Source: an uncultured Opitutaceae bacterium (lineage in GTDB: Bacteria; Verrucomicrobiota; Verrucomicrobiia; Opitutales; Opitutaceae). Taken from it: a stretch of 55,951 nucleotides of DNA. Of the stretch, positions 45,701-55,951 are shown in pieces; position 1 is the stretch's first letter; each line of letters starts with the position of its first letter. The translations under genes were made by a program, and so were the position numbers. The notes below the pieces were generated by a model, which saw only the letters and a list, made by a program, of their open reading frames with translations, did no database searches and had not been told where the DNA came from. Location of the stretch: contig CALFNN010000031.1 in assembly GCA_937902925.1 (NCBI GenBank), forward strand, positions 1 to 55,951, read 5' to 3'.

Positions 45701-48700
45701 CTACGGTGCGGGCTCCTCCAGCAAGCCGTTGCCGTTGATCGTGAGACGATCGGCGGTGACGTGGCCGTGGAGCGTGCTGCTGCCGTTGACGACGACGGTG
45801 CCGCCCGGCGCGATCACGACGCCGCTGAACGAGACGTTGCCATTCAGCGTGAGTCCGCCGGCCGCGAGTTGCAGCGTGAGCCACTCGGGATGCGGGGAGG
45901 AACCGACGTTGCCGTTGAGGTTTGTGCCGCTCGCGAGCGTGAGGACCACGGGGCCGACGATCTGGAGTTGCGCCGTGCCGTTGAGCGTGAGCGCCTGCAA
46001 GTTGTAGACGGCGGGTTCGGTCGCGCCGGCGATGCCGAGGACGAAGCTGCCGTTGCCGTTCGCGATGAAGCTGCCGTAGGAGCCCGGCGGGACGGCGATG
46101 GCGCCGGCGTTGCCGTTGAGCGTGAGATTGCGCAGCGTGGCGAAATCGCCCGGGCTCTGGCCGGGGGAGTTCAGCGCCACATTGCGCGTGCCAGCGGGCG
46201 GCGGCGGCGCGGCGACGGCGGGCATCGCGATCGGGTCGACGCGGCGGACGACGTGGCGGAGGACGGAGCCGCCGTTGAGCGTGATGGTGTAGTTCGCGGG
46301 CGAAGCGCTGCCGGAGCCGTCGAGCGTGCTGCCATAGGTGGGGTGGCCGTTGAGCTGCACGGCGGGCGAGCCCGGCACGAGGAGATCGCCGGAGACCATC
46401 GCGTTGCCGTTGAGCGTGGTGCTTTCGGGCAGGAGCATTTGCACGGAGCCGTCGATGTCGCCGTTCAACGTCGGCGCGTGGCGGACGAGCGCCGTGGCGC
46501 TGATCGTGAGTGTCGCGCTGGCGGTGCCGGAGGAACTGGGATCGTCGATCGTTGCGATCACCGCATACGAGCCTGGAAGCGTGGGCGGCGTGGAGCTGCC
46601 GTCGTAGGTGAGCGTCACGGCGAGTCCGGCGGGAGCGGTCGCGGCGGTGACGGACTTCGGCGTGCCGTCGTAGGCCTGCTGGAGGTTGCCGAGCGTCAGG
46701 CCGGCGACGGCTTTGACGGTGACCTGAAGGCTCGTGCCAGTGAGCGTGAAGAATGCCTGGTAACCCGACGGCAGACCGACGGCGGTGAAGTCGTTCGCCG
46801 CGAAATCCGTCGAGGCAAACGTCGCGATCGTATAGGTGTTGCCCGCGGCGAAGCCGCTGCCGGCGGCGAGTGCGACAACGTAGCTGCCGGCGGCGCCCTT
46901 CGTGAGCGGGCCACCGAGCGCGAGCTGGTCCGAGCTGCCGCTGGCGCCGAGCCGGATCGCGAGCAGGCTGCCGGCGTTCCAGGTGACCGCCGCGGCGGGC
47001 GCGGTGCCGGTGGGCGCGAGGGTGCCGCCGTTGAGGACGATGGCCTTGCCGATCGCGCCGCCGCCGGCGAGCGTGCCGCCGGGGTTGATGTCGACTTCGC
47101 CGCCGGCGGCGAGGCTGCCGGTGACGAGCAGCGTGCCGGCGTCGATCGCGACCGAGCCGGCGAACGTGTTCGCGCCGGCGAGCGTGAGCGTGCCGGCGCC
47201 GGTTTTGTCGAATCCGCCGGGGCCGGTGAGCGGGCCAGTGAGCGCGAAGTCGAACGGATCGCCACTCGCGTTTGCGGCGCGCAGCGCGAGAGCCGCCGGC
47301 GTGCCGTTGAGCACGATCGGTTGCGAGGTGCTCCACGGGGCGAAGGCGCCGAGCGTGCCGCTATTGAGCGTGATGGAACTGGCCATGGTGCCGTTCTTCA
47401 CGATACCGCCCGTGCCGAGGTTGAGCTCGCCGTCCGTGACCGCGACGGTGACGGAGCCGGCGCTCGAGCTGGCATCGTAGCCGAGCGCGAGGCGGGCGAT
47501 GTTGCTCACGCCGCCGGTGATCGTGAACTTGGCAATCTGGTTCGTGTTGTTGGCGCGGGCGGGCGAGTCGGTGGCTGGGTTGCGGGCGAGGATCAAGCCG
47601 CCGGTGGGTGAGGCGTCGAGCGCGTCGAACTCGCCGCCGGAGACGGCGACATCTCCGCCGCGGGCGGACGTGACTTGAAAACCGACGTGGACCGGCCCGG
47701 TGACCGTCAATCGGCCGCCGGAGATCGTCATCGCACCCCAGGAGTTGTCGGTGCCGAGCCCGATCGTGCCGACGGTCGAATCGCCGCCGCTGATCTGCAC
47801 GCCGGCGGCGAGCGCCTGCGACTCCGAATCGCCGCTGCGCGGAAACTTGATCTCGGTCGCGGAGAACGTGCCGCCGGTCACGCGCACGAAGCTGTTGCGG
47901 GTGTTCGAGGGCAGGATGCGCTGGAAGTCGCCCGTGCCCGCGCTGACGATGATGCCCGTGCCGGTGCCGGAATTCCACGTCACGTTGCCCGGCGTGGTGA
48001 ACGTGCCGCCGGCGACGCGGAGCTGCTGCGAGGTCGAGATGCTGACGGACGACGGCGTGAGCGATCCGCCCGGGCCGATCTGCACGACGCCCTTGGTGAT
48101 CGTGAGTGGGCCGGTGATCGTCGCGGGCTGCGTGATCTGCAGCGTGCCGACGCCGGTCTTCGTGAAGCCACCCGAGCCGGCGAGAACGACATCGAGCGTC
48201 GTTGGGAAATCGGCCGCAGCAGGCACGTCGACGGTGTCGCCGCCCGAGGTGACGACGGCGTTGACGTGGAGATTGGGCGTCGGGCCCGCGAGCGTGAGCA
48301 CATTGGCCGGCGAACCGTTGTTGCCGAGCGTCCAGAGCGCGGGGTCGGTGACGCCCGGATCGCCGAACACGAGCCGGCCGAGCGTGCGCGCCGAATCGAG
48401 CTGCACGGTCACGTCCTCGGAGAAGTTGGTGAAGTCCGCGGTGGCGCCGGCGCCGTCGGCGACGATGGCGTCGTCCCAGTTGGCGGGATTGCTCCAGCGT
48501 TGGTTGTTGTCGGTCGAGGTCCACACGCCGCTGCCCGGCAGCCGGATGGTGTAGGTCTGACCGGAGGTGAAGCCGGTGTTCATGGCGTTGCCCGCGACAT
48601 CGACGATGCCGGTGCCGCTGCTCTTCGCATCGAGCCGCACCGTGCTGTCGCCCGTGACGCCGGTCACCGTGACATCATAGGCGGTGCTGTCGACGGGCAC

Positions 48701-51046
48701 GAGCGAGGCGATGGCGCCCGTGACGCCCGCGCCGAGCGTAAGCGAGAAATCTCCAGCATCGACCCCACTGACCGGCTCGGCAAACGTCACGCGAAACACG
48801 ACCGTGCTCGCGGTCGTGGCCGAGGTCGTCGGGTCCTGGCGTTTGATCGAACTGACCGTCGGGCGGGTCGTGTCGATCGTGACGACGAACGCCGACGACG
48901 ACGGGCTTGCGTTGCTACCGTCCGAGGCGGTGGCGGTGAACTGATACGTGCCGGCGGGCAGCGTCGTGCCGGTGTAGTTGAACGACCACGCACCGCTCGC
49001 ATCGGCGGTGGCGCTCCCGATCACGCCGACGCCGAGGCGCGTGATCGAGACGGTGGCGCTGGCGAAGCTGGTGCCGTTGAGGACGAGCGTGGGATCGTTG
49101 GTGATCTGGTCGGTCGCGGAGGCGCCGGAATCGCTGACGATGCCGGTGAAGACGGGTGCTGCGAGAGCGGTGTCGGCAGCGTAAGGCGCGGAGGCCGGAC
49201 CGCGGTTGCCGGCGAGGTCCGTCGCCGCAGCGGTGAAGGTGTATGTGCCCGGAGGGAGTGGCGCGCCAGTGTAGGGTGCGCTCCAGTTGCCGAGATCGTC
49301 GGCGGTGGCGCTGCCGACGACACCGGTGCCGGCGAGCGTGACGTCGATATGGTTGGCCGGATCGCTCGTGCCGTTGATGGCGAACGCCGGCGACGTGACC
49401 ACGCTCGTGATCGCGGGCGCCGTGGCCGGAGTGGTCTTGACCTGGACCACGAACGCGATCGACGGCGCCGATGCACCGACCACGGCCTGAAACGCATACG
49501 CGCGATCTGTGAGCAGCGTGCCGGTATAATCGAAAACCCACGCGCCGCTCCCGTCCGCGGTGGTGCTGCCGATCACTCCGGTATCGACGCGAGAAAGCGC
49601 GACGGTCGCATTGGGTGCGCTCGCGCCGCGGAGCTCGATGCCTGGATGCGCGGTATACGTGATCCCATGATAGAGCGTCGTCCCGCTGGTGTCGCCCGCG
49701 AGGCCGTCGATCGTGGCCGAAGGGCCGCCGGCGCTCGCGATGGCGTTGACGTAATTTTCGAGATTGGAAAAACCGTCGCCGTCGAGATCGCCGTTGTTAT
49801 CGGCGAGGAGCGCGTTGGTGCCAGCGGCGCTCTCCCAAAAATCCGGCAGACCGTCGTTGTCGGTGTCCACGGCCGCCAGGCCGCCCGCGACGTCACCCTG
49901 ACCGCCGACGAGCGCTTCGCCGCGCGGGTCGGCGTGCGGAATCGTCTGCCCTTGGAGTCCGAGCGACGTGAGCTCGGTGATCAGCCGCTGGTCGACCGAA
50001 TCGCGGCTGAGCGAACAGCCGGCCTCGGCGACGATTCTCTGGTAGGCGACCGCGGCGCTGTCGATCGTGACGGGAATCGCCGGGTGCATCGCGGCGGTCG
50101 CCTCGAAGGTGGGCAGCGTGTAGCCGGATTCGTCGGCGCGATGGAAATCGGCCTCGCCGATGAGCTGGCCGTTGAGCGTGCCGTCGGTGTCGAGGTCGGC
50201 AAAATTACCCGACTGATAAACGTGATCCGTCGCGAGGAACTGGCCGGCGAGCCGGTTGTTCGACGACGGGCCCTCGATGAAGTAGTTGCCGATGACATCG
50301 AGGAAATGGTCGCCCGCGGAGTGGCCGCCGCAGAGGCCGGTGCCGCCCCAGTTGTAGACGACGTTGTTGATATACTGGATCGTGCCCTTGGCCTTCGGAT
50401 TGCGGCTCTCGTTGCTCATCCAGAGATTGTGGCTGAGCGTGACGTTGGTCACCGAGTCGATCAGCGCGCCGAAGCTCTGCGGGTTGATGCCCTCGGCCAT
50501 GATGCAGTATTGCACCGTGATGTCGTGGGCGTTGTTGGTGATGCCGAGGACGTCCCAACGGCCCCATTGGATCGAACAATGGTCGACGATGATGTTGCTC
50601 GCGTTGTCCATCCCGAGGGCCTTGCTGCCGCTGTCGCCCGCGATGCCCTGGCGGATGCGCAGGTAGCGGACGATGATGTTGGTGCGGCTGCTGAGCGACA
50701 GGCTGCGGCCGTAGAGGCAGATGCCCTCGCCGGGCGCGGTCTGGCCGGCGATCGTGACGTTGCTGCTGACGGCGATGTCGCTCGCGAGGCGGATGACGCC
50801 ACCGACATCGAAGACGACCGTGCGGCCGCCGGCGCTGACGGCGTCGCGGAACGAGCCGGTGCCGCTGTCGTTGAGATTCGTCACGTGATAAACCGTGCCG
50901 CCGCGGCCGCCGGTGGCGTTGGCGCCGAAGCCTTCCGCGCCGGGAAAGGCGGAAACGGCGAGCAGTCGCGGGAGTGCAAGCGCGAGGAATAATCCGAGGG
51001 AGGCGAGCGGGTGGCGCCGCGGAGCGGGAGCATTTGTCGTGGTCAT
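45701..51046 (-). CDS. Giant mosaic pectate lyase with Ig-like, strand-repeat and LNGN domains
   Basis: From ATG 51046 the product has 1,781 residues. A signal peptide (about 1-30) precedes a PL1-type pectate lyase domain (about 32-390; FPGAEGFGANATGGRG, LTIAGQTAPGEG, IIVDHCSIQWG). Then come a DTDNDGLPDFWE calcium-type segment (about 392-430), three similar Ig-like repeats (VIGSTTADGSGAW, VVGSATADDLGNW, VIGSATADASGAW), a further beta domain, autotransporter-associated strand repeats (TKTGVGTLQITQPATITG near 955 and DKTGAGTLTLAGANTFAG near 1282), an MBG-like domain (AYDGTPKSVTAATAPAG) and about 250 residues of LNGN-type repeats. There is no autotransporter barrel or PEP-CTERM signal at the end. 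It would bind and cut pectin at the cell surface or after release. The N-terminal 430 residues are paralogous to the protein at 11838-13190. Confidence 0.88.
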   Translation of the reverse strand: MTTTNAPAPRRHPLASLGLFLALALPRLLAVSAFPGAEGFGANATGGRGGTVYHVTNLNDSGTGSFRDAVSAGGRTVVFDVGGVIRLASDIAVSSNVTIAGQTAPGEGICLYGRSLSLSSRTNIIVRYLRIRQGIAGDSGSKALGMDNASNIIVDHCSIQWGRWDVLGITNNAHDITVQYCIMAEGINPQSFGALIDSVTNVTLSHNLWMSNESRNPKAKGTIQYINNVVYNWGGTGLCGGHSAGDHFLDVIGNYFIEGPSSNNRLAGQFLATDHVYQSGNFADLDTDGTLNGQLIGEADFHRADESGYTLPTFEATAAMHPAIPVTIDSAAVAYQRIVAEAGCSLSRDSVDQRLITELTSLGLQGQTIPHADPRGEALVGGQGDVAGGLAAVDTDNDGLPDFWESAAGTNALLADNNGDLDGDGFSNLENYVNAIASAGGPSATIDGLAGDTSGTTLYHGITYTAHPGIELRGASAPNATVALSRVDTGVIGSTTADGSGAWVFDYTGTLLTDRAYAFQAVVGASAPSIAFVVQVKTTPATAPAITSVVTSPAFAINGTSDPANHIDVTLAGTGVVGSATADDLGNWSAPYTGAPLPPGTYTFTAAATDLAGNRGPASAPYAADTALAAPVFTGIVSDSGASATDQITNDPTLVLNGTSFASATVSITRLGVGVIGSATADASGAWSFNYTGTTLPAGTYQFTATASDGSNASPSSSAFVVTIDTTRPTVSSIKRQDPTTSATTASTVVFRVTFAEPVSGVDAGDFSLTLGAGVTGAIASLVPVDSTAYDVTVTGVTGDSTVRLDAKSSGTGIVDVAGNAMNTGFTSGQTYTIRLPGSGVWTSTDNNQRWSNPANWDDAIVADGAGATADFTNFSEDVTVQLDSARTLGRLVFGDPGVTDPALWTLGNNGSPANVLTLAGPTPNLHVNAVVTSGGDTVDVPAAADFPTTLDVVLAGSGGFTKTGVGTLQITQPATITGPLTITKGVVQIGPGGSLTPSSVSISTSQQLRVAGGTFTTPGNVTWNSGTGTGIIVSAGTGDFQRILPSNTRNSFVRVTGGTFSATEIKFPRSGDSESQALAAGVQISGGDSTVGTIGLGTDNSWGAMTISGGRLTVTGPVHVGFQVTSARGGDVAVSGGEFDALDASPTGGLILARNPATDSPARANNTNQIAKFTITGGVSNIARLALGYDASSSAGSVTVAVTDGELNLGTGGIVKNGTMASSITLNSGTLGAFAPWSTSQPIVLNGTPAALALRAANASGDPFDFALTGPLTGPGGFDKTGAGTLTLAGANTFAGSVAIDAGTLLVTGSLAAGGEVDINPGGTLAGGGAIGKAIVLNGGTLAPTGTAPAAAVTWNAGSLLAIRLGASGSSDQLALGGPLTKGAAGSYVVALAAGSGFAAGNTYTIATFASTDFAANDFTAVGLPSGYQAFFTLTGTSLQVTVKAVAGLTLGNLQQAYDGTPKSVTAATAPAGLAVTLTYDGSSTPPTLPGSYAVIATIDDPSSSGTASATLTISATALVRHAPTLNGDIDGSVQMLLPESTTLNGNAMVSGDLLVPGSPAVQLNGHPTYGSTLDGSGSASPANYTITLNGGSVLRHVVRRVDPIAMPAVAAPPPPAGTRNVALNSPGQSPGDFATLRNLTLNGNAGAIAVPPGSYGSFIANGNGSFVLGIAGATEPAVYNLQALTLNGTAQLQIVGPVVLTLASGTNLNGNVGSSPHPEWLTLQLAAGGLTLNGNVSFSGVVIAPGGTVVVNGSSTLHGHVTADRLTINGNGLLEEPAP

Positions 51047-51591
51047 GGGATGAGAAAGCGGAGGGCCGGTGGCCTGCCACCGGGGTTGCGAGTGGAGCGG
51101 ATCAGCGATCCGCCCGGACTGAATCAAGGCGAGAGGCCGGCCGGGATGCCGCGGACATTGCCGGCGAGGCGGTCCGCACCGATGCAGCTGGCGGGAGCGC
51201 GATGGCTGGTTGTGACCGTGCCGGAAATGACGCGGCTACGATCCGCTGCCGGGACGCAACGCGAGCGAGAAGGGGAAAACGTGAATACCCTGGGGCGAGT
51301 TCTCAAGGGGCAGGGATTACAGACACCGCGACGCCGCGGTGGTTGAGCAAAAATATCGAAGCCGTCGATGCCGCTTCAACGGGAACATTCGCCGGACAGT
51401 CCATCCGGAATATTTTTTTAAAAACTCCCGACTGCGCCGGAAGGAATTTCCCCCAGACACATCGCGGGGGAGACCCGACTCGAAATTTTCCACGCGGGAT
51501 ATTTGTAGTGCAACGCGACGTGTGACGCGCGTCGGGCGTGGCGAGCGTGGACTTTTCCGGCGAATTCCCGGCGGCGTGCGGGCGAAGTTTG
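51047..51591. other. Non-coding upstream region of giant pectate lyase
   Basis: I could support no gene in these 545 bases. Short open frames are present but have no family resemblance. The part from about 51340 to 51500 is AT-richer than its flanks and includes CCGGA-cagtcca-TCCGG at 51392-51408 followed by T(7)A(5). The repeat resembles the palindrome between GH28 and the symporter. The region probably holds the promoter of the minus-strand pectate lyase. On the plus strand the hairpin plus T-run has the shape of a weak terminator, but no plus-strand gene ends before it. Confidence 0.5.
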
Positions 51592-52932
51592 TCAGCGCGG
51601 ATCGGTGATCCGGCCGAGAAAAAGGCAGGTGCCGCTGGCGCGATGTTGGATCGCGAAGAGGAACGGCCGGTCGACGCGGACTTCGACCGGCTGCTGTCGC
51701 GCGGCGCTGCCGGCATAGCTTTCCGCCGCGGCCGTCGCAGCCGCGGCCTCGGTGCCTTCCTCGTCGAGCGCAAGGAATGTCTGGTGGAAAACCTCGGAGA
51801 GCTTGAGATAGTCCTCGGGCCGGCGCGCCGCGATCCGTTCGAAATTCGCGCTGCCTTCCGGCTCGTCGAAGGCGCTGGTCACGCCCAGTCGTCTAAGCAC
51901 CGGACGCAGCGGAACGGTTACGCCAGCGACGCGAAATCGGGGCAGGTGCAATGCCACCAGCGTCGAGCCGGTCTCTTTGCCGAGTTTCGACCACCGCGCG
52001 AAATCGGCGGTCGAGAGTTTGTTTGCGACTGCGCTGACCGAGGATCCTTCATCCGGGAGCAGGATCAGGCACTGCAACTCGCGCCCGAGGTAGTCGAGCG
52101 AGACGACCGTGAGTCCGGTCATATGTTCGTAGCCGAGATAGCCTCCCTGTTGCATGGTCGGGACTTCGCGGCTGGCGCTGTCCGTGAGATGGAAGGGCTG
52201 CGGCACCGTGAAAATTTTTTCGAACGGCGTATGCCACGGGGCCTTGAGATAGAGGGCGTTGACGAGCACGAGGCGGGTGTCGGGGCTCACCCCGCGTGGA
52301 GGAATGAGATCGAGGATTTTTTCCCGGGTTTGTTCTTCCACCCAGCGGTTGATCACGCTTCGCGCCTTCTCGTCCTCGTGACGGAAATCGAGCGATTCAA
52401 ATGGCGCGGCGTAGCGGTCGCGCAGCAGCGCGAGGAACGAACTGCGAAACGCATAGCCGCTTTGCGCGAACAACCGGTTCGCCTCGTGCCATTCGATGCC
52501 CGCGGCCGGGGCCGGCTCTTCCGGGAGCTCGACCCGCTGGCCGTTCATGATCGCATAGATTGGCGTGCGACTGGCGCGGTGGCGCGCGACGGCAACCTTC
52601 GCGGACTCGGCTGCGGCGGTTGCCAGATCCGTGCGCAGGCCGGCGAACGCTCGATCCACCGCGGCGTCGTCCACCGGAAGATGCAGCGCGGTGGACATCT
52701 CGCTGCGCGTGGAGCCGTCCGCGCCGGCGTAGGCGAGCGCGAGGGCGCTCTCGATCGAGTAGGGAGAGATGACGAGGTTTTCGCCGGGCTTAGCGCCGGC
52801 GAGTCGGCGATAGAGATCGAGGCCGACTTGGTTGGTGGCGGAAGCGACGTCGAAACTGGCGGCGGCGAGTGGCAGGGCGGAACCGAAGATGCAAAGCGCA
52901 AGGAGGAGTGGACGGGCCGGGAGCGGGTTCAT
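51592..52932 (-). CDS. Exported serpin (serine protease inhibitor family), copy 1
   Basis: The start at ATG 52932 gives 446 residues with a signal peptide (MNPLPARPLLLALCIFGSAL). The body is a serpin: ISPYSIESALALAYAGADG, EWHEANRLFAQSGYAF, LVLVNALYLKAPWHTPF and RVDRPFLFAIQHRASGTCLF. The hinge of the reactive-centre loop, E391-E-G-T-E-A-A-A-A-T400, fits the consensus of inhibitory serpins (small residues from P12 to P9). The loop continues as AAAESYAGSAARQQ before the conserved PVEVRVDRPF, and counting suggests a scissile bond near Ala/Gly or at the Arg. It would trap a serine or cysteine protease outside the cytoplasm. It is paralogous to the serpin at 54225-55499; a dioxygenase gene stands between them. 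Confidence 0.93.
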   Translation of the reverse strand: MNPLPARPLLLALCIFGSALPLAAASFDVASATNQVGLDLYRRLAGAKPGENLVISPYSIESALALAYAGADGSTRSEMSTALHLPVDDAAVDRAFAGLRTDLATAAAESAKVAVARHRASRTPIYAIMNGQRVELPEEPAPAAGIEWHEANRLFAQSGYAFRSSFLALLRDRYAAPFESLDFRHEDEKARSVINRWVEEQTREKILDLIPPRGVSPDTRLVLVNALYLKAPWHTPFEKIFTVPQPFHLTDSASREVPTMQQGGYLGYEHMTGLTVVSLDYLGRELQCLILLPDEGSSVSAVANKLSTADFARWSKLGKETGSTLVALHLPRFRVAGVTVPLRPVLRRLGVTSAFDEPEGSANFERIAARRPEDYLKLSEVFHQTFLALDEEGTEAAAATAAAESYAGSAARQQPVEVRVDRPFLFAIQHRASGTCLFLGRITDPR

Positions 52933-53187
52933 GGCTTGGCTGCGATGAGACACCGTGGCGGCCATGGTTTGGAAAGACAACTGGGCTGTGGGCGCGGGCA
53001 TCACGCGAGGGTCGGGCGGAAAACAGGCGGATGATCGTCGAGTCCACGGCAAGTTTGGCGGCTCGGAACGCGGTCGTGAGGCACGAGCGGATGCGGGGCG
53101 TGCGACGGGAACTTGCGTCCGATTTGTTTTGGATGCAGCGTCCCGGGCTGCCGCGGGCGTGCTGCTCGTGACGACGTTCTACACCCC

Positions 53188-54219
53188 ATGTCCCAAATCG
53201 AAGCCCAGCTCGTGGCGCCGTCGGAAAAAGGCGCGCTCGGTGTGTATCAGCTCAAGCGACTGTGGTCGCGTGCGCTGGCCTCGCGCCAGGGTGGCGCGTC
53301 CGGCGACCTCATCGAACGGCAGCTCGATCATCTCGTCACGGACGCGCTGGGCCTCGGGCTCGAGCAGGTGCAACAACATCTCATGCGCGTCGCGCCGTCG
53401 TTCGAGGAGTTTGAGCGATGGATTGTCGCGACTACCGGCGGCATCGAGCCGGAGCAAGTGGCCCGGATCAACGCCGCCCTCACCGGCGCGGAACCGCCGG
53501 GGTCGACGCGGCGCGGGCTCGCCGCGATCGAGGCGATGGAACCGGTGCTGTCGCCGGCGGATCTCGCCCACTGGGCGGAGCACGGCTACGTGATCGTCCA
53601 CGACGCGGTGCCGGAAGAGACGCGCGCCGCGGCCGAAGCGGCAATCTGGCGGCATCTCGGCGCGCGCCCGGACGAGGCGGATTCGTGGTATGTCCCAAAC
53701 GACCACGGCATCATGGTGCAGTTCTTCCAGCATCCCGCGTTTACGGCGAACCGGCGGTCGCCGCGCGTTCACAAGGCGTTCGCGCAGCTCTGGGGCACGG
53801 CGGACTTGTGGGTGACCACGGATCGCGCGGGCTTCAACGTGCCCGAGCGGCCGGGTTGGAAGTTTCGCGGGCCGGACATGCACTGGGACGTGAGCCTCGC
53901 GCGGCCGATTCCGTTCGGCACGCAGGGCATCCTCTACCTCGCCGACACGCCGGCGGAGCAGGGCGCGTTCACGTGCGTGCCGGGATTTCACCGCCGGATA
54001 GACGCGTGGCTGGACACGCTTCCGCCCGGCGTCGATCCGCGACGGGAAGACCTGCACGCGCTCGGCTCGCAGCCCATCGCCGGCCGGGCCGGCGACCTCG
54101 TCATCTGGGACCAGCGGCTGCCACACGGCAGCCGGCCGAATCGCGGCGAGCGGCCGCGAATCGTTCAATACCTCAACATGTATCCGACGCGCTTCGAGGA
54201 GCGCGCGGAGTGGATCTGA
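53188..54219 (+). CDS. Phytanoyl-CoA dioxygenase family protein
   Basis: Starting at ATG 53188 (MSQIEAQLVAPSEKGALGVY) the protein has 343 residues. The C-terminal two thirds are a PhyH-type Fe(II)/2-oxoglutarate dioxygenase domain: DLAHWAEHGYVIVHDAVPEE at its start, the metal ligands His and Asp in GPDMHWDVSL, and the distal His in RLPHGSRPNRGERPR. The N-terminal 110 residues form a separate helical segment that I do not recognise. Members hydroxylate varied small molecules or lipids; the substrate here is unknown. The gene is convergent with serpin 2, with only 5 bases between stop codons, and divergent from serpin 1. Confidence 0.85.
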   Translation: MSQIEAQLVAPSEKGALGVYQLKRLWSRALASRQGGASGDLIERQLDHLVTDALGLGLEQVQQHLMRVAPSFEEFERWIVATTGGIEPEQVARINAALTGAEPPGSTRRGLAAIEAMEPVLSPADLAHWAEHGYVIVHDAVPEETRAAAEAAIWRHLGARPDEADSWYVPNDHGIMVQFFQHPAFTANRRSPRVHKAFAQLWGTADLWVTTDRAGFNVPERPGWKFRGPDMHWDVSLARPIPFGTQGILYLADTPAEQGAFTCVPGFHRRIDAWLDTLPPGVDPRREDLHALGSQPIAGRAGDLVIWDQRLPHGSRPNRGERPRIVQYLNMYPTRFEERAEWI

Positions 54220-54224
54220 GCGGG

Positions 54225-55499
54225 TCAACGCGGGTCGGTGACGCGGCCGAGAAAGAGGCACACGCCGCTCGCGCGGTGCTGGATCGCAAAGAGAAACGGC
54301 CGGTCGACGCGCACTTCGACGGGCTTGGGCGGTTTTGCGGCCACGGCGAACGTGCTCAGCACCACACCGACGGTCGCGGCGGCGGCTTCGGTGCCGTCTT
54401 CGTTGAGCGCAATGAAGGTATCGTGGAAGACGTCCGACAGTGCGAGGTAGTCGCCGGGTTTGCGCGGCGCGATGCGATCGAAGTTGGCGCTGCCGGCGGG
54501 CTCATCGAACGCGCTTTTCATTCCGAGCGCGCGCAAGCTCGCCCCGAGCGGAATGGTTCCGCTCTCGACATGGAACCGGGGCAGGTAAAGCGCGACGAGG
54601 GTTTTGTTTCCTTCGCCGATTTTCGACCACCGGGCGAAATCATCTGCCGTGAGCTTCGCGGCGACGGCCTCGGGCGACCGGCCCTTGTCGGCCAGCAAAA
54701 TCAGGAACTGAAGGTCGCGATCAAGATAGTTCAGGGCCACGACGGTCAGATTGCTTTCCTTCGCGTAGCCGAGATCAGCCGTCTTGATCATGGTCGGCAC
54801 GTTGCGGGAGGCGCCACCGGCGGAATAAAACGGGCGTGGCTCCGTGTCGTCTTTCTCGAACGGGTCCTGCCACGGCGCCTTCAAATAGATCGCGTTGACG
54901 AGCACGAGCCGGGTGCGCGCGTTGATGCCGCCGTCCGGAACGACCTCGTCGATCCGGTGTTTCGTCTGGTTCGCAACCCAATCGTTGATCGTCGTGCGCG
55001 CGTTTTCCGCGGCGTGCTTGAAATCGAGCGGCGCGAACGGTGCGGCATAACCGTCGTTCACTAAGTTTAGAAACGAATCGCGAAAGGCATAACCCTGCTG
55101 GCCGAAAAGGCGGTTGGCTTCGTGCCATTCGATCGGATCGACAGCCCCGCCGTCCCGCCGGCGTTCCTTGGCCGTGTTTTCCGTGCGCGTTGCGATCGCG
55201 TCGAAGGCCGAATGCAATTCGCCGAAGCCAGACCGCACGGTTTGATCGTCCGACGGAAGATGAAGCACGCGCGCCATCTCGGCGCGGGTCTCGCCGTCAG
55301 CCCCTGCATAAACGAGGGCGAGTGCGCTTTCGATCGAGTAGGGGGAGAGGACGAAATTGTCATCCGGCTTCGACGGTGCGAGGTGCCGGTAGAGTGCCAG
55401 GCCAACCTGATTGGCCGCCGCCGCCGCATCGAAGTCCGCCGCGCGGAGGAAAGACGGCTGCGCGAACGCGAGCATCAGAGAAAGGACCCGAAGCTTCAT
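54225..55499 (-). CDS. Exported serpin, copy 2
   Basis: This 424-residue protein has a signal peptide (MKLRVLSLMLAFAQPSFLRA) and a complete serpin fold with LSPYSIESALALVYAGADG, EWHEANRLFGQQGYAF, LVLVNAIYLKAPWQDPF and a C-terminal RVDRPFLFAIQHRASGVCLF. The loop hinge E367-D-G-T-E-A-A-A-A-T376 is of inhibitory type. The following loop, VGVVLSTFAVAAKPPK, differs almost completely from that of copy 1, while the flanking sequences are nearly identical. It would inhibit a different protease class, for example an elastase- or chymotrypsin-like enzyme. Probably arose by duplication. Confidence 0.93.
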   Translation of the reverse strand: MKLRVLSLMLAFAQPSFLRAADFDAAAAANQVGLALYRHLAPSKPDDNFVLSPYSIESALALVYAGADGETRAEMARVLHLPSDDQTVRSGFGELHSAFDAIATRTENTAKERRRDGGAVDPIEWHEANRLFGQQGYAFRDSFLNLVNDGYAAPFAPLDFKHAAENARTTINDWVANQTKHRIDEVVPDGGINARTRLVLVNAIYLKAPWQDPFEKDDTEPRPFYSAGGASRNVPTMIKTADLGYAKESNLTVVALNYLDRDLQFLILLADKGRSPEAVAAKLTADDFARWSKIGEGNKTLVALYLPRFHVESGTIPLGASLRALGMKSAFDEPAGSANFDRIAPRKPGDYLALSDVFHDTFIALNEDGTEAAAATVGVVLSTFAVAAKPPKPVEVRVDRPFLFAIQHRASGVCLFLGRVTDPR

Positions 55500-55603: not shown

Positions 55604-55951
55604 TTACTTCTTGGCGTCGGCGAGGGCGGCCTGGGCCGCGGCCAGACGCGCGACCGGCACGCGATAAGGCGAGCAGGACACGTAGGTCAGGCCGAGCTTG
55701 TGGCAGAACTTCACCGAGTCCGGATCGCCGCCGTGTTCGCCGCAGATGCCGAGCTTGATGTCGGGGCGGGTCTGGCGGCCCTTGGCGATCGCGATCTCCA
55801 TGAGCTGGCCGACGCCGGTCTGGTCGACCGAGGCGAACGGGTTCTTCTTGAACACCTCGGCCTCCTGGTAGGCGCCGAGGAAGGAGCCGGAGTCGTCGCG
55901 CGACATGCCGAGGCAGGTTTGCGTGAGGTCGTTCGTGCCGAAGCTGAAGAA
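55604..55951 (-). CDS. ppdK: Pyruvate, phosphate dikinase, C-terminal part (cut by window edge)
   Basis: The frame is open to the right edge and encodes the last 115 residues of the enzyme. It begins within [11 protein letters not shown] and contains [10 protein letters not shown], the motif with the catalytic Cys of the PEP/pyruvate domain, then [14 protein letters not shown] near the end. The enzyme converts ATP, pyruvate and Pi to AMP, PEP and PPi, reversibly. It is followed by a clear terminator. Its PPi/AMP chemistry links to the candidate PPi-PEPCK and adenylate kinase encoded 21-25 kb away in this window. Confidence 0.96.

Follow-up and report, generated by a model that had tools for sequence, protein, structure and literature searches.

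Two neighbouring serpins with strongly diverged reactive-centre loops, probably exported, in an uncultured Opitutaceae bacterium

The window studied here is a stretch of 55,951 nucleotides (contig CALFNN010000031.1) from the 6.0-Mb genome of an uncultured Opitutaceae bacterium, and it carries two serpin genes on its reverse strand, serpin 1 (51592..53052) and serpin 2 (54225..55499); all serpin features given below are on this strand. Both open reading frames lie where an earlier sequence-only reading had placed them, and both match the Pfam serpin family PF00079 over positions 2-370 of the 370 of the profile (E 6.7e-98 for serpin 1 and 4.6e-97 for serpin 2). Serpin 2 has 424 amino acids. For serpin 1 the frame of 486 amino acids with a TTG start should be corrected, the likely start being the ATG at 52932 (446 amino acids), which opens a signal-peptide-like sequence. 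The two proteins share 58% identity over 415 columns (BLAST), and no further gene of the genome matched the serpin family at E <= 0.001. With moderate confidence, we interpret them as two exported inhibitory serpins born from an old tandem duplication, whose loops have diverged, so that the two probably act at different rates on proteases not of the trypsin type, or on a different range of them.

The hinge (P17-P8) reads EEGTEAAAAT in serpin 1 (51733..51762) and EDGTEAAAAT in serpin 2 (54372..54401), so the GTEAAAAT motif noticed before is present in both, and it is followed by the reactive-centre loops, P7-P7' AAAESYAGSAARQQ in serpin 1 (51691..51732) and P7-P9' VGVVLSTFAVAAKPPK in serpin 2 (54324..54371). 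These strings are as the sequence-only reading quoted them, and they differ almost entirely: in the 30-row alignment described below, 1 of the 17 aligned positions is identical (2 of the 17 being gaps), against 235 of 379 elsewhere. Among 379 windows of 17 columns along the proteins, only those starting at columns 356 and 357, which are the loop itself, were as low in identity. The count varies slightly with the alignment, with 2 identities in the BLAST pairing and 4 of 16 in a pairwise alignment that includes the conserved PV. In the 46-row alignment 24 columns do not vary, presumably including shutter and breach residues, and serpin 1 conforms to all of them. Its hinge, EEGTEAAAA, agrees with the inhibitory rule for P17-P9, ExGTEAAAA with x being E, K or R, as quoted in the excerpt of PMC8233489 that was available. 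In serpin 2 (EDGTEAAAA) every position but P16 fits, an Asp standing there outside E/K/R; P16 is variable among the relatives too (A, N, L, I and others).

The loops had also been described as longer than that of alpha-1-antitrypsin by about 5 and 7 residues. As lengths these figures stand, taking the alpha-1-antitrypsin loop to be as we assumed it, and they are ordinary for the group: the loops have 16 residues in serpin 1 and 18 in serpin 2, at or just above the group median of 16 (range 9-22 in the 47 of 54 rows that could be parsed, pair included, 7 rows being unparsed), so long loops were discarded as a special feature. The loop of chloropin, a serpin from Chlorobium limicola, exceeds that of alpha-1-antitrypsin by 4 by the same count.

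In order to locate P1, the register was counted from the P17 Glu with a 17-residue spacing and calibrated on chloropin, whose Arg-Ser falls at P1-P1' by this count and whose P1, Arg383, has support from a mass-spectrometric analysis of the peptide released (PMC10090351, available excerpt). By this register P2-P1-P1' would be Tyr-Ala-Gly in serpin 1 (P1-P1' Ala-Gly, P1 codon 51712-51714) and Ser-Thr-Phe in serpin 2 (P1-P1' Thr-Phe, P1 codon 54351-54353), in such a way that neither predicted P1, Ala or Thr, is of the trypsin type. Arg or Lys is predicted at P1 in only 3 of the 47 parsed rows (pair included), the commonest residues being Gly (10), Ala (8) and Thr (8).

Both proteins are probably exported, as judged by eye from their translations with the usual criteria: putative Sec signal peptides are MNPLPARPLLLALCIFGSALPLAAA in serpin 1 (52858..52932) and MKLRVLSLMLAFAQPSFLRA in serpin 2 (55440..55499). 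The residues before the Cys of the serpin 1 signal sequence do not follow what we take to be the lipobox rule. AlphaFold2 models, built on 46-row alignments of the window and locus proteins, gave mean predicted local distance difference test (pLDDT) values of 92.0 for serpin 1 and 90.7 for serpin 2, with values below 50 only from the distal hinge into the loop (model residues 372-384 and 352-367, respectively). In structural comparisons all the best matches listed were solved serpins. For the serpin 1 model (VIA-align) these scored Z 44-47, among them antithrombin and native MENT (46.9 each), native miropin (45.4) and chloropin (44.9); for the serpin 2 model (Foldseek) they included PAI-2 with a loop-mimicking peptide and antithrombin, the best match, a solved serpin, having E 1.6e-36. 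Both proteins thus belong to the serpin superfamily and have a predicted serpin fold. Since the solved structures are in several states, the comparison shows the fold, and it is the models, with no strand assigned to the loop in either, that suggest an open loop not inserted as a strand.

The history of the pair was studied in an IQ-TREE tree of 54 serpins, in which a clade of 32 rows, mostly of the same family, surrounds the two proteins. Serpins 1 and 2 are sisters (98/91) on long branches of 0.38 each. Scanned in windows over the length of the gene, the proportion of synonymous differences (pS) between them is 0.44 to 0.75. Their synonymous sites are close to saturated, the two branches that follow the duplication carrying 4.1 and 4.9 neutral changes per codon. 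As far as sampled, with one genome of the window's genus covered, the gene comparison indicates a duplication that is own to this lineage and old. The loop flanks, described before as nearly identical, are indeed alike, and this likeness reflects conservation across the clade, with a ratio of nonsynonymous to synonymous rates (omega) of 0.04 for the flank after the loop in both codon sets (12 and 30 rows). It is not a sign of recent duplication, because pS over the 32 codons after the loop is 0.47, inside the range of the whole gene; neither a recent duplication nor gene conversion that would have kept the flanks similar is therefore supported.

Rates were measured on 30 of the 32 clade rows, leaving out L068 for its long branch and L011 for its broken frame (L and G numbers are our labels for loci and genomes); 7 of 53 full serpins had been left out of the alignments (L007, L037, L038, L040, L042, L043, L073). 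The mean site rate was 1.92 in the loop, 1.03 at 130 other loop positions, 0.88 in helices and strands and 0.40 in the hinge, the loop differing from the other loops with p 2e-4 (Mann-Whitney; P7-P1 alone, p 0.07). By mean rate, six of the 379 windows came before that of the loop, which was thus 7th; two of these six overlap the loop, and the other four belong to the helix-D region (residues 75-103). This second variable patch, from helix D to s2A, spans approximately 52498..52638 in serpin 1, where roughly 19 residues are added and two short strands are predicted, and 55131..55217 in serpin 2, as defined by site rates and by an omega of 0.15-0.23.

Omega was then estimated with a purpose-written codon likelihood, in which branch lengths and the transition/transversion ratio kappa were fitted on the body, only omega was free per region, and gaps were treated as missing data. 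With 12 rows it was 0.09 in the body, 0.11 in other loops, 0.15 in helix D, 0.23 (0.18-0.27) in the loop and 0.02 in the hinge; with 30 rows the values were 0.10, 0.12, 0.23, 0.26 and 0.03, respectively. On the two post-duplication branches loop omega was 0.48 against 0.20 elsewhere (twice the log-likelihood difference, 2dlnL, 6.3; 30 rows), and by halves the rise gave 2dlnL 6.9 for P7-P1, where the estimate runs off, and 1.6 for P1'-P10'. The body (2dlnL 0.01) and the other loops (0.3) did not change omega on these branches. These loop tests are three of six branch tests run, and their 2dlnL are uncorrected for number. For single tips, loop omega was 0.74 in serpin 1 (2dlnL 5.5) and 0.38 in serpin 2, and that of P7-P1 in serpin 1 lay at the upper bound (2dlnL 6.2), tied with L022. 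Within pairs of serpins, nonsynonymous divergence (dN) was higher in the loop than in the body in 7 of 11 measurable pairs, the window pair included; the loop of L003/L005 could not be delimited, and the pairs L070/L071 and L071/L073 share a member. Taken together, these estimates indicate that the loop is less constrained than most of the protein and that its change went further once the gene had duplicated, above all in serpin 1. In the comparison of loop and body that the sequence-only reading had proposed, loop omega is the higher, and well under 1 all the same. With regard to the possibility, raised there too, that the loop diverges no faster than other surface loops, it is faster on average (1.92 against 1.03; omega 0.26 against 0.12), and helix D and some short loops match it.

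Several of these results weigh against specificity divergence as the cause. Short loops reach the rate of the reactive-centre loop (1.96 at residues 191-195, 1.89 at 206-210, 1.76 at 24-28), and helix D is as variable as the loop, both in site-rate windows and in omega with 30 rows, and it also rises on the post-duplication branches (0.23 against 0.14, 2dlnL 3.4). Omega of 1 was rejected in every region, and for the whole loop with 2dlnL of 99.8 (12 rows) and 248.6 (30 rows), so positive selection over the whole loop is not supported. The near saturation of the synonymous sites is a further point against. The tip values of serpins 1 and 2 rank 4th and 10th of 30, the latter an unremarkable place, with L036, L028 and L022 above serpin 1, and loop dN does not exceed body dN in 4 of the 11 pairs, among them the three closest pairs but one. 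Only two pairs had a loop dN above the synonymous divergence (dS), L007/L009 (0.96 against 0.45) and L045/L046, the latter through one change. Finally, serpin 1 has a Glu at P4, in the part of the loop that must insert, where on structural grounds it could weaken inhibition. Regarding a link between high loop omega and genomes with several serpins, inspection by eye found L036 and L022 (both of genome G026) and serpin 1 ranking high, and L025, L027, L032 and L035 speaking against it.

Loops drifting under relaxed constraint would leave a similar trace, and we consider it possible, if rather doubtful, that both serpins keep the same broad-range targets, with several bonds that can be cut and few positions that matter. 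A loop omega below 1 favours this, and so does L028, the sole serpin match of its genome, with a loop omega of 2.01 (2dlnL 13.5), which suggests that loops change without a duplicate. The siropins of Eubacterium siraeum are a further point in its favour: according to the excerpt of PMC5127057 that was available, siropins 1 and 2 have 60% identity overall and 48% in their loops; neutrophil elastase and proteinase 3 are inhibited by both, with the cuts falling at different loop positions, P3-P2 and P6-P5, off the register P1. Diverged loops therefore do not prove different targets. Such drift is less easily reconciled with a loop omega that goes up on the post-duplication branches with the body and other loops flat, and with P2-P1-P1' residues that differ in kind between the two serpins.

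Quite improbable, in our opinion, is that one copy lost inhibition, serpin 1 being weak or non-inhibitory, for instance a binding protein. Its faster loop (0.74, 4th of 30, with P7-P1 at the upper bound), the Glu at P4 and the extra residues after helix D would agree with it; its canonical hinge and the presence of all 24 invariant columns argue for an inhibitor. Degeneration of the hinge does occur in the clade, in L036 (GTVATASS), and serpin 1 has nothing of the kind.

The reading that we favour is that of two inhibitory serpins whose specificity has probably diverged. Serpins act by insertion of the cut loop and covalent trapping of the protease, and by this mechanism each protein would present its exposed loop as a substrate and, once cut, insert it into sheet A and carry the protease across the molecule. 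The scaffold and the hinge are under strong purifying selection, and the bait part of the loop, loosely constrained, has diverged further since the duplication. With small or hydrophobic residues at P1, candidate targets would be elastase-, subtilisin- or chymotrypsin-like proteases or a cysteine protease, whether foreign or the bacterium's own; candidate own targets are 6 subtilisin-type (S8), 6 trypsin-fold and 1 papain-type (C1) protease matches in the genome. It is possible that the two serpins have different targets. The loop pattern is what specificity divergence would be expected to produce, and much the same would be seen with a bait under weak constraint. The sequence-only reading had proposed selection for different target proteases; that the loop diverges more than other loops do on average is supported, and the selection itself is plausible and unproven.

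The sequence-only reading had called serpins uncommon in bacteria; in this phylum they are not rare, with a match in 109 of 387 sampled genomes, and in the family 39 of 252 genomes have one. Nor is the tandem arrangement unique, as side-by-side pairs occur in three other genomes of the 387 (G590, G647, G739); among the matches listed for the 252 family genomes, no other adjacent pair was seen. The G590 and G647 pairs have like flanks around different loops, and the G739 pair is only 96/382 identical. One could imagine that serpin duplicates of environmental Verrucomicrobiota form an evolving set of bait loops, the loop of one copy being selected after duplication by predator or competitor proteases as in the animal serpin arms race. 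The window pair would then be one instance, and the neighbouring serpins of G590 and G647, with their exchanged loops, may be others. We regard this as unlikely, and the more so because hinges are degenerate in these other tandem pairs, in one G590 copy (GTVATAAT) and both G647 copies (GAKATAAD, GAEAVAAD), which, judging by this motif, may not be inhibitors.

Other serpins of the sample showed particular architectures. L036 (1998-3413, reverse strand, genome G026), with the degenerate hinge given above, has the highest loop omega of the 30 tips, 4.24, and is probably no longer inhibitory. L022 (586-2697, forward strand, contig C6 of G026, also L059) is a frame of 703 amino acids with sigma-70 regions 2 and 4, a hydrophobic stretch found by eye and a complete serpin, a single instance whose product might be a membrane sigma factor with the serpin outside, which could sense proteases. 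The nearest serpins to the pair (L015, L026, L028, L030, L024, L034, L023, L029 and L032, 6 of the 9 from genus g16) have about 300 extra N-terminal residues that the window serpins do not have, with an internal repeat ..GPGLxxFGV.. seen by eye; the two scanned (L015, L026) gave no Pfam match in this extension. In other families of the phylum, L088 (344-4148, reverse strand), L096, L101 and L102, which include the G590 tandem pair, have in common an N-terminal domain of about 220 residues, which by eye we take to resemble LolA-type lipoprotein-sorting proteins.

Regarding the neighbouring genes, a PhyH-type dioxygenase gene (53188..54219, forward strand; PF05721, E 2.7e-14) lies between the serpins. 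A role as their partner or operon member is not supported, the gene being on the opposite strand and having its closest homologues in six other family genomes of which five (G209, G094, G047, G049, G003) have no serpin match and the sixth, G174, has it on another contig. The first ~110 residues of its product (53188-53562, forward strand) match short stretches in many family genomes, one of which, L085, matches DUF5069 (E 4e-6); for the stretch in the window protein, Pfam gave no match up to E 0.1, and the protein may combine a DUF5069-like domain with a dioxygenase. Upstream of serpin 2, at the contig end, is the 3' end of a gene (55604..55951, reverse strand) that we take to encode a pyruvate phosphate dikinase-like protein (ppdK). 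Genome G012 has the same ppdK-serpin order, its ppdK being 94% identical over 100 amino acids, and its single serpin match, adjoining ppdK (L011, 652-2697, also L052), has one in-frame TGA, indicating either a decaying gene or an assembly error. On the other side of the serpins, a frame of 1808 amino acids (45701-51127, reverse strand) scores above the cut-off for Big_13 (Ig-like), MBG and PATR (passenger-associated) and below it for pectate lyase, and probably encodes a large exported protein.

In comparison with known systems, the pair is an ordinary instance of a known pattern, duplication followed by divergence of the reactive centre, and such reactive-centre hypervariability after duplication was reportedly described by Hill and Hastie in 1987. 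Having two almost independent loops on one scaffold in one genome, it offers a natural loop-swap experiment on what selects the loops of bacterial serpins. The tandem-duplicated mammalian serpins, rodent SERPINA3 and primate SERPINB3/B4, likewise show duplication and then divergence of the loop or interface; they differ in being animal genes with targets tested or proposed, and in the woodrat the hypervariability was followed up by expressing 12 paralogues (PMC12646145, PMC4136820, both in excerpt). Prokaryotic serpins have been divided into groups S, T and U by Spence et al. 2021, and their role is described as unclear in the excerpt of PMC8233489. Among the literature matches listed, titles and the starts of abstracts pointed to no work on serpins of Verrucomicrobia, and the only match for serpin plus 'Opitut' dealt with a sponge Thaumarchaeota, in searches outside of which most subscription journals lie.

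Among characterised bacterial serpins, chloropin (PDB 8gxv) gave serpin 1 its best sequence match in the PDB (E 4.2e-60), and it has a typical hinge and a loop of similar length (15 by the same count); unlike the window serpins it has Arg at P1, and it inhibits thrombin and KLK7 (PMC10090351). Miropin of Tannerella forsythia (PDB 5ncs) shares the fold of the serpin 1 model (Z 45.4, 364 residues, 2.1 Å) at 28% identity, and inhibits human plasmin (PMC8233489). The published pair nearest in kind is that of the siropins, which are also two paralogues, 60% identical, from one bacterium, with loops more diverged than the rest; according to the same excerpt of PMC5127057, they do not inhibit trypsin, chymotrypsin, pancreatic elastase or subtilisin. 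One siropin is predicted to be exported, whereas both window serpins look exported, and the loops of the window pair, with 1 of 17 positions identical, are far more diverged than those of the siropins, which keep 48% identity.

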